64,000 nt of DNA from NCBI RefSeq assembly GCF_009189165.1, contig NZ_CP045118.1:5952001-6016000 (forward strand), given 5' to 3'. The notes beneath the pieces were generated by a model. It had not been told where the DNA came from and did not search any database. It saw only the letters and a program-made list of their open reading frames with translations. The stretch comes from Pseudomonas sp. SCB32 (lineage in GTDB: Bacteria > Pseudomonadota > Gammaproteobacteria > Pseudomonadales > Pseudomonadaceae). Shown here in pieces: positions 10,419-12,913 of the stretch (positions are counted from its first letter, which is position 1; each line of letters opens with the position of its first letter). A program made the position numbers and the translations under genes.

Positions 10419-11476
10419 GCATCGTCCTCGGGATCGGTCAAAGGCGTCAGTTTACGCCGGTATTCGCCCAGACTCTGCCCCGTCCAGCGCCGGAATGCGC
10501 GGGCGAGCGAACCGGCCTCGCTGAAACCCAGCAGATAGGCGATGTCGGCGCTGTCCAGCGCCGGGTCGCGCAGGTAGTGCAGCACCAGTTGCTGGCGGGT
10601 TTCATCCAGCAGTTGGCTGAAGGAGAGGCCGATGTCGCGCAGCCGGCGCTGCAAGGTGCGCGGGCTCAGGGCAAGGGCCTGAGACAGACGCTCCAGGTCC
10701 GCGCCCTGTTCCGGCAACTGGCGCGCCAGCTCCAGGCGGGCGCGATCAAGCACGTTGTCTCCCTTGTTGATTTCCGCGAGCAGGCGCTCGGCGTAGGCGT
10801 CCAGGGTGCGCCGTACCTCGGCGTCGGCCTGGCCCAGCGGCAGGTTCAGCAGGCGCCTGGGGAAGACCAGGGCATTGTCCGGCTGGTCGAACAGCACCGG
10901 GCAGCGGAAGATGCGCTCATGCTCGCGGGTATCCGCCGGCGCAGGGTGGCTGAAACGCACCTCGAACGGCGCCTCGTCCACGCCACTGACCCAGTGACCG
11001 AAGCTGACCCAGCCGGCCAGCGTCTCTTCGCTCATCTGGCGCTGCTGTTGCGGCAGCAGCGGCTCCCAGCTGTGCTTCACCAACGCCTCGCAACCCGCGC
11101 GCGGCGGCTCGTCGGCCAGCTCCACGCGGCCCAGGTTACCCACCAGCGCGGCATAGCGCGCCTGGCGATGCAGGGCGTCGGCAAGGGTCGCGCAACTCAT
11201 GATCAGGTAACCCAGCACGCCGTAGTAACCGGGGCGTACCGCCTCGCCCAGGTGCAGGCCGAGATTGCCGTCACCGCTCAGCCGCACGCCGGCGCCCACC
11301 AGCTCCAGGTAGGCACTGGCGGCGATGCGCTGGTCGCGCTGGCTGAGGATCGACGGTTCCAGGCGCACCGTCGCCAGCAGTTGCGCCGGATCGACGCCCT
11401 GGCGCTGCAGATGCTCCACGAGGCCCTTCAGGTAGGCCACCGACACCGAACTGGGCAGGGGATCGCGATAGTCCAT
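10415..11476 (-). CDS. AraC-family transcriptional regulator (arabinose-binding-type N-terminal domain)
   Basis: A 353-residue regulator with an N-terminal ligand domain of the type found in OruR/ArgR-like Pseudomonas AraC proteins (about residues 15-225) and a C-terminal double HTH (about 250-345: LALSPRTLQRRLRDIGLSFSQLLDETR then IAYLLGFSEAGSLARAFRRWTG). The ligand is not deducible. The stop overlaps the start of cyaY by four bases. In P. aeruginosa, as I recall, cyaY directly faces lppL, so this regulator looks like an addition. It is divergent from lppL, with 129 bp between. Confidence 0.88.
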   Translation of the reverse strand: MDYRDPLPSSVSVAYLKGLVEHLQRQGVDPAQLLATVRLEPSILSQRDQRIAASAYLELVGAGVRLSGDGNLGLHLGEAVRPGYYGVLGYLIMSCATLADALHRQARYAALVGNLGRVELADEPPRAGCEALVKHSWEPLLPQQQRQMSEETLAGWVSFGHWVSGVDEAPFEVRFSHPAPADTREHERIFRCPVLFDQPDNALVFPRRLLNLPLGQADAEVRRTLDAYAERLLAEINKGDNVLDRARLELARQLPEQGADLERLSQALALSPRTLQRRLRDIGLSFSQLLDETRQQLVLHYLRDPALDSADIAYLLGFSEAGSLARAFRRWTGQSLGEYRRKLTPLTDPEDDA

Positions 11477-11605
11477 CGAGCATTCCGTTTTTTTGTCGGC
11501 ATCCTACCGGGAAGGCCCGCCGGGCGGGAGCCCGCTTGAATAGGCAAGCCGGCGGGGGGTCGGTATACTCCGGTCCAATTGACGCTTTATTACAAGGATT
11601 CCGCC

Positions 11606-11746
11606 ATGAAGCGACTGATGCTTCCCTTCGTCGCGCTGGCCGTACTGACCGCCGCGCTGGCCGGCTGTGGCCAGAAAGGCCCGCTGTACCTGCCGGACGA
11701 CCAGAAGGCCAAGAGCGAACACAGCAAGGACCGCTACGGTCTCTGA
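11606..11746 (+). CDS. lppL: Small lipoprotein LppL
   Basis: A 46-residue lipoprotein. The signal peptide [21 protein letters not shown] ends in an LAGC lipobox, so the mature protein begins at Cys21 and continues [15 protein letters not shown], the conserved core of LppL/YifL-type lipoproteins. AAGGA lies nine bases upstream of the ATG. It is the first gene of the lppL-lysA(remnant)-dapF cluster; the next start codon is 11 bases beyond its stop. A TATACT at about 11564-11570 is a plausible -10 element. The function of this lipoprotein is unknown. Confidence 0.9.
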
Positions 11747-11757
11747 GGGCGCTTCCC

Positions 11758-12069
11758 ATGGACGCCTTCAACGTCCGCGACGGGCAGCCGATCGCGGAGG
11801 CCGTGTCGTATTCGGCGATCGCCGCGCGTATCGGCACGCCGACCTGTGCAATGGGCGACTTCTTCGCCCGGCTGCACAGCCCCGCCCCGGAAGAAGGTGA
11901 CCTGCTGGCCGTTCGTTCGGCCGGCGCCTATGGTTTCGTGATGAGTTCCAACTACAACACCCGGGGCCGCGCCGCCGAGGTGCTGGTGGATGGCTCGGCC
12001 GCGCACGAAGTGCGTCGCCGCGAGACGATACAAGAGCTATTCGCCGGCGAAAGCCTGCTGCCGGACTGA
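11758..12069 (+). pseudogene. lysA: Diaminopimelate decarboxylase, internally deleted remnant
   Basis: An open 103-codon frame that joins the N-terminus of LysA to its C-terminus. Residues 1-29 (MDAFNVRDGQPIAEAVSYSA... up to GTPT) match the LysA start, and residues 30-103 match the end, from the active-site Cys/GDF motif through [21 protein letters not shown] to [16 protein letters not shown] full LysA has about 415 residues, so about 310 codons are missing in frame. The lost part contains the whole PLP barrel including the PLP lysine, so the product cannot decarboxylate diaminopimelate. The gene keeps its place between lppL and dapF (13 bp to dapF). Residues 31-44 (AMGDFFARLHSPAP) depart from the family more than the rest. 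Confidence 0.85.
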
Positions 12070-12082
12070 GGCCGAGACGACG

Positions 12083-12913
12083 ATGCTTCTGCGCTTTACC
12101 AAGATGCATGGGCTGGGTAATGACTTCATGGTCCTGGACCTGGTCAGCCAGCACGCCCATGTGCAACCACGCCACGTGAAACAGTGGGGCGACCGCAATT
12201 TCGGGGTCGGTTTCGATCAACTGCTGATCGTCGAGCCGCCGAGCACACCGGAGGCGGATTTCCGCTACCGCATCTTCAACTGCGACGGTACCGAGGTTGA
12301 ACAGTGCGGCAACGGCGCGCGCTGCTTCGCCCGCTTCGTGGTCGACAAACGCCTGACGGTGAAGAAGACCATTCGCGTGGAAACCAAGGGCGGGATGATC
12401 GAACTGACCCTGACCAACGATGGCCAGGTCACGGTCAACATGGGCGCACCGCGCCTGACGCCCGAACAGGTGCCGTTCCAGGCCGACGCCGAGGCGCTGA
12501 GCTACCCCGTCGAAGTGGACGGCCAGCGCTTCGAGCTCGCCGCGATCTCCATGGGCAACCCGCACGGCGTGCTGCGCGTGGATGACGTGGACAGCGCCCC
12601 GGTACGCACCCTGGGACCGAAACTGGAAGTCCACGAAAGCTTCCCGCAGAAGGCCAACATCGGCTTCCTGCAGGTGGTGAACCCGAACCAGGCGCGCCTG
12701 CGCGTCTGGGAGCGCGGCGTCGGCGAGACGCTGGCCTGCGGCACCGGCGCCTGCGCGGCGGCGGTCGCCGGCATCCGTCAGGGCTGGCTGCAATCGCCGG
12801 TACAGATCGAGCTTCCCGGCGGACGGTTGTCCATCGAGTGGGCAGGACCGGGTCAGCCCGTTATGATGACCGGGCCCGCGGTGCGGGTCTTCGAAGGCCA
12901 GGTACGTCTATAA
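12083..12913 (+). CDS. dapF: Diaminopimelate epimerase
   Basis: A 276-residue DapF that interconverts LL- and meso-diaminopimelate in lysine and peptidoglycan synthesis. The two catalytic cysteines are visible: CGNGARC near residues 75-81 and ACGTGACAAA near 217-226. The N-terminus [17 protein letters not shown] is canonical. It lies 13 bp after the lysA remnant and 11 bp before the DUF484 gene, so it remains in the conserved cluster. DapF is needed for cell wall synthesis whatever the state of lysA. Confidence 0.97.

Follow-up and report, generated by a model that had tools for sequence, protein, structure and literature searches.

The lysA position of Pseudomonas sp. SCB32, a Pseudomonas of the P. 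nitroreducens group, holds a gutted relic of the diaminopimelate decarboxylase gene in which one part drifts freely, a 63-nt core is constrained at the nucleotide level and a 16-bp RNA stem is constrained in its pairing. A second lysA (lysA2) is present elsewhere in the genome, and that the locus is a relic in a genome supplied with lysA2 is close to certain. We consider it an even bet, on comparison of sequences, that the decayed gene has been kept as a translated bridge and a structured RNA leader for dapF, and not as a protein. Relics of operon genes are usually dismissed as junk or carry the name of the enzyme that was lost. At this locus, decay amounts to a mutation experiment run by nature: the dispensable parts have drifted, and the undrifted part marks a nucleotide element hidden in an ordinary coding gene. 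The locus also offers a handle on how operon neighbors constrain the loss of a redundant gene. Nothing on a lysA relic was found in the titles and abstract openings of the literature matches listed.

The window analyzed is a 64,000-nt stretch of contig NZ_CP045118.1 (positions 5,952,001 to 6,016,000), and all coordinates refer to it unless otherwise stated. The locus contains the following features.

11541 to 11569, + strand: promoter-like site before lppL, TAGGCA-17-TATACT, from a consensus scan only.
11606 to 11746, + strand: lppL, the upstream gene, encoding an LptM-type lipoprotein (Pfam PF13627; matched by tblastn in all 25 genus genomes).
11758 to 12069, + strand: lysA remnant, a 103-codon frame (open reading frame [ORF] list, loci of relatives and NCBIfam profile).
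11844 to 11845, + strand: deletion junction, where 936 nt (codons 30 to 341) are lost by comparison with intact relatives.
12068 to 12071, + strand: GAGG, the likely Shine-Dalgarno sequence of dapF, read from the sequence and overlapping the lysA stop codon.
12083 to 12913, + strand: dapF, the downstream gene, 276 amino acids (Pfam diaminopimelate epimerase).

The dapF start is placed at 12083, a correction to the sequence-only reading made earlier by a model. A class-I adenylate cyclase gene lies upstream; 3' of dapF come a DUF484 gene, a tyrosine recombinase gene (taken as xerC) and a HAD hydrolase gene, all assigned by Pfam. The Pfam family matched by the gene called lppL is LptM_cons, which denotes the LPS-assembly lipoprotein LptM.

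The sequence-only reading had proposed an in-frame internal deletion of lysA, and comparison with intact relatives confirms it. The remnant ORF runs from ATG to TGA with no internal stops. With the 415-amino-acid intact LysA of sister genome G020 as the reference, it retains codons 1 to 29 (to GTPT) and 342 to 415 (from a Cys, which we take to be an active-site residue of LysA), and 312 codons are missing. The barrel and the pyridoxal phosphate (PLP) lysine, whose places in intact LysA fall within the missing codons, are gone, as had been claimed. TIGR01048, the NCBIfam lysA profile, covers the remnant at profile positions 339 to 416 only, with 81.2 bits against a cutoff of 297.9. LysA is the source of both ends of the remnant, yet the remnant lacks the barrel and the PLP lysine and scores far under the family cutoff; judged from the codons that remain, it cannot act as a diaminopimelate decarboxylase. 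The spacing to dapF was also correctly read as preserved: the distance from the first base of the stop to the dapF start is 16 nt, equal to that in the intact sisters G020, G003, G001, and G004. In these intact relatives, the ends of the missing piece carry near-identical short repeats, CCGACCT (four of four) and CCGATCT (three of four; CCAATCT in G004), so a slippage-type deletion between them is likely.

The same shortened locus was found in 11 of 24 other genus genomes, and on that ground the assembly collapse that the earlier reading had allowed for is rejected; 2 more genomes are gutted further. Counting the present genome, lysA beside dapF is degenerate in 14 and intact in 11 of 25 genus genomes. 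Among 20 database proteins examined from the 120 matches listed (2,025 matches overall), 15 are remnants of 102 to 103 amino acids, several coming from the same species as the genomes compared. Remnant ORFs in the database (P0002, P0016, and P0005) are named either diaminopimelate decarboxylase, as P0002 and P0016 are, or Enterobacterales bacterium hypothetical protein, and both names look misleading. A search of a phage collection gave no match.

The sequence-only reading had also stated that lysine synthesis would need another decarboxylase gene, and a genome-wide search located one. Three fold-type III decarboxylase genes (Pfam PF02784) are present: a 412-amino-acid frame, presumably an ornithine decarboxylase, which scores 189.8 bits as lysA and is under the cutoff; a 661-amino-acid frame, which we take to be probably SpeA; and lysA2. 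The last encodes 414 amino acids (G000:C1:3261967-3263208), lies 2.7 Mb from the remnant and passes TIGR01048 with 423.8 bits over residues 9 to 410. It is a predicted diaminopimelate decarboxylase that could supply the enzyme, and on gene content the lysine auxotrophy offered as an alternative is not expected. A LysR-type regulator frame lies directly upstream of lysA2 on the same strand, the two together spanning G000:C1, about 3260874-3263211. Identity of lysA2 is 82 to 97% across 17 other genus genomes and 94 to 97% in the 15 of these that belong to its own group. lysA2 is found in all 14 genomes with a degenerate lysA versus 4 of 11 with an intact one, counts that come from related genomes and so do not represent independent events. 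In the seven intact-lysA genomes without lysA2, the best matches to it are 36 to 39% identical and are located at their own lysA. The confinement of degenerate lysA to lysA2 genomes is what a pseudogene left after displacement by a distant paralogue would give, except that part of this remnant is under nucleotide and base-pair constraint.

A neighbor-gene tree was built from the adenylate cyclase gene, dapF, the DUF484 gene, xerC (absent in 1 of 25 genomes) and the HAD gene and was rooted on G006. On this tree, 11 remnant genomes form a single clade, here called clade B, with G004 (intact lysA) as its sister. The present genome (G000) lies outside clade B and pairs with intact-lysA G020 (support, 0.99), then with intact G003 and G001. 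A separate clade, made up of G014 and G021, has a loss of its own, down to 40 and 27 codons. Over 11746 to 11920, 22 sites of the present genome carry a letter seen in none of the four intact genes, and at 20 of them at least one clade B remnant has that letter too; where both the present genome and G022 depart from all four intact relatives, the two agree at 13 of 14 sites, ruling out an independent deletion. A tree of this segment joins the present genome to G022 (support, 0.92). Over 11921 to 12069, there are zero sites that differ from all four intact genes, meaning that this part is of the genome's own clade type. The remnant is therefore a mosaic whose first part is of clade B type and whose last part is of its own clade's type. 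Given these shared letters followed by own-type sequence, the most likely source of the deletion is homologous recombination with a donor related to clade B, the crossover lying close to the core. The remnant tree and the neighbor-gene tree are discordant for other genomes, too. A database ORF of 93 amino acids (P0012) carries a different in-frame deletion and junction with the same two ends kept; since it was found as an ORF, it is biased toward open frames.

Rates of change within the remnant differ sharply by segment. The relevant segments and the paired elements are as follows.

11792 to 11887, + strand: drifting part of the remnant, with 1.84 changes/site in 11 species (codon positions 1, 2, and 3: 1.53, 2.19, and 1.81).
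11921 to 11983, + strand: frozen core of 63 nt, none of whose 11 four-fold sites changes in 11 species; contains ATGA at 11941 to 11944.
11981 to 11996, + strand: 5' arm of the 16-bp RNA stem (pairing kept; simulations).
12034 to 12049, + strand: 3' arm of the 16-bp RNA stem (pairing kept; simulations).
11961 to 12064, + strand: proposed outer stem, 11961 to 11967 with 12057 to 12064, reached by 99 of 1,000 simulations and not significant alone.

In clade B, the parsimony rate of the drifting part exceeds the 1.07 changes/site at four-fold sites of five neighboring genes, and codon positions 1 and 2 change freely there along with position 3. The segment from 11984 to 12035 changes at 1.31 per site (codon positions, 1.29, 1.44, and 1.18). 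Read from the start codon, 8 of the 12 long remnants have an unbroken frame (103 codons in seven and 95 in one), and the other 4 have lost it. The remnant thus shows no sign, in its substitution pattern, of selection as a protein.

The core behaves differently. It has 0.16 changes/site in clade B against 1.06 in the preceding 33 nt, and its changes fall mostly at codon position 1 (0.33 per site) rather than 3 (0.05). Its absence of change at 11 four-fold sites has no parallel among 908 runs of 11 successive such sites in the five neighboring genes. The bounds of the core were picked after the alignment had been viewed, and in our judgment, selecting a stretch out of 312 nt could not produce a contrast nearly so large. 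A 110-nt invariant run is shared by four intact relatives (G020, G003, G001, and G004); it begins at codon 366, lies at about 11917 to 12026 and takes in the core and the 5' arm of the stem but not the 3' arm; the next-longest run in the gene is 53 nt, and the 36 invariant codons were reached by 0 of 10,000 codon shuffles. Since the run is present in intact relatives, the constraint is probably older than the deletion. In the five genomes of the next intact group, no run is longer than 12 invariant codons, and no dip in synonymous change at the core region was seen in 9 intact genus lysA genes or in 21 intact genes in all. The constraint therefore belongs to this clade, and an element general to intact lysA is ruled out. 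Nucleotide-level constraint on the core region is, on these comparisons, very probable. The claim that drift stands beside constraint in the remnant was thus right about both, except that the constraint acts at the DNA or RNA level rather than on the protein.

These results bear on two alternatives. The first is that the locus encodes a functional mini-protein from the LysA C-terminal domain, akin to the natural short protein that had been suggested. Retention of 103 codons in 7 of 12 remnants and the lack of substitution-born stops (see below) would fit it, but codon positions 1 and 2 are unspared in the drifting part, the frame is lost in four remnants, and the core has frozen synonymous sites yet tolerates nonsynonymous changes; we regard it as very improbable. 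The second is a plain decaying pseudogene whose conserved parts are only the translation start regions of lysA and dapF. Free drift, the four broken frames and the near-complete loss in two genomes agree with this reading, but the core sits between drifting stretches, about 160 nt downstream of the lysA start and 100 nt upstream of dapF, and the pairing of the stem is beyond chance, leaving it unlikely.

The exact core pattern occurs in eight named records, including P. nitroreducens TX1 and 381H, P. nicosulfuronedens, and P. pseudonitroreducens. A 35-nt core pattern occurs once in its own genome at up to three mismatches, so that an element repeated elsewhere in that genome is ruled out. In G014 and G021, the core is lost together with the stem, and neither is therefore indispensable. 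The core may be part of a leader fold, a protein-binding site, a promoter or a small-RNA seed; its invariance gives no clue to a partner, and the columns of a proposed long-range pairing with dapF codons are nearly invariant. A promoter for dapF and xerC within lysA would have TATGGT as its −10 element and a weak CTGGCC 18 nt upstream, in keeping with the conserved hexamer-like blocks and the variable spacer between them. However, the only site picked up by the consensus scan is the one before lppL, a promoter leaves the stem unexplained and two relatives do without it, and we doubt this explanation about as much as the plain pseudogene.

Base pairs kept through substitutions beyond chance were found for the main stem only. 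In the 12 remnants, 15 stem pairs are kept in 97.8% of cells; seven of these pairs are invariant, five show changes on one side only, a single pair has changed on both sides and two depart only by unpaired cells. In clade B (11 species), 172 of 176 stem cells are paired despite 21 substitutions in the 16-pair arms. Simulations with the same changes per column and no pairing rule gave a mean of 90.3%, and 0 of 2,000 reached the observed value on the neighbor-gene tree; on the remnant's own tree, 0 of 1,000 from each of three starting sequences did so. The mutation model behind these simulations is a simple one, and counts made on a tree are disturbed by recombination at the locus, yet both trees agree for the stem. 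Among 24,819 ungapped 13-bp windows scanned, 9,051 had at least eight variable pairs; the stem ranked first at 97.4% paired, and the next unrelated window reached 83%. The pairing and covariation score of the stem plus the inner hairpin was reached by 0 of 500 shuffles, and the number of pairs with two-sided changes was reached by 32 of 500. The stem loop drifts, with 3 nt lost in two genomes and 12 nt in one. Neither hairpin 1 (294 of 1,000 simulations as good) nor the inner hairpin (88 to 142 of 1,000) is significant alone. The proposed outer stem has one two-sided change, in three genomes with the same surrounding letters, and this is probably one event.

Among the minimum-energy folds of the 12 remnants, 10 contain the stem, that of G015 has part of it and that of G009 lacks it. 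Folding z-scores are modest in the remnants (−0.13 to −3.40), and three intact genes from the next group gave values of −0.30 to 0.33; stability alone would therefore miss the stem. When the stem was considered as an insulator of the dapF start, shuffled upstream sequences did as well in 7% (best three remnants) to 88% (worst) of cases, and an occluded look was seen in three of five genomes of the next intact group. A covariance model run on 56 genomes under stricter filters matched 38 at E ≤ 0.1, with strong matches at the lysA 3' end and eight weak matches elsewhere (E, 0.0098 to 0.098), one of them on lysA2 of G020. Rfam gave no match at E ≤ 1 in 11300 to 12400, which rules out a known RNA family. 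The conserved stem just upstream of a coding start resembles cis-acting leader RNAs, whereas the element matches no Rfam family and lies inside present or former coding sequence. A trans-acting small RNA from the lysA 3' end, with the core as seed and the stem as stabilizer, would account for a frozen stretch adjoining a conserved stem and for the constraint in intact relatives, but the Rfam result and the position of the only terminator-like site upstream of the core (11903 to 11926) make it a poorer prospect than either the promoter or the plain pseudogene.

In each of the 12 long remnants, no stop interrupts the core in the frame whose end lies 16 nt ahead of the dapF start. Ten of the 14 degenerate loci, including the two gutted to 40 and 27 codons, keep a single open frame from the start to the stop before dapF. 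No stop codons occur among aligned codons in the 12 remnants, and the 8 unshifted taxa have 0 substitution-born stops versus 4.06 expected in neutral simulations [P(0) = 0.011]. The shifted upstream frame of G023, G005, and G018 terminates at a TGA overlapping the ATG of the frozen core; the ATGA would, as read from sequence, allow the lysA frame to restart. In G009, the shifted upstream frame stops earlier than the core ATG.

From this frame, we infer a bridge role for the remnant. As we picture it, lysA2 would have taken over and made lysA dispensable, and a repeat-mediated deletion would have removed the catalytic part of lysA in frame. The remaining frame would be a translated bridge carrying ribosomes from the old lysA start to the stop that overlaps the likely dapF ribosome-binding site, sparing dapF and xerC from silencing. 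Since dapF is presumably both an essential gene and an operon partner of xerC, a deletion that kept translation into dapF would be favored over one that stopped it. The frozen core and the stem would form a structured RNA leader just before dapF. For any effect of the remnant on dapF, we put the chances for and against at par. Translated leader ORFs and translational coupling in operons are a known kind of system, which the remnant resembles in that its short frame ends in the likely ribosome-binding site of the next gene; it differs in deriving from a gutted enzyme gene, and the coupling here is putative. A bolder version, which we hold tentatively and would not favor, is that a regulatory RNA for dapF and xerC arose inside lysA in the ancestor of the species group and outlived the gene, lysA being hollowed around the RNA with the open frame as its carrier.

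Two further stretches near dapF vary little in clade B. In the spacer and first dapF codons (12072 to 12143), 1 column in 24 is variable. At the 3' end of dapF, the ~95 nt that precede the DUF484 gene (12816 to 12911) are nearly invariant, with 0 to 3 variable columns per 24, and possibly represent another leader or start-region element.
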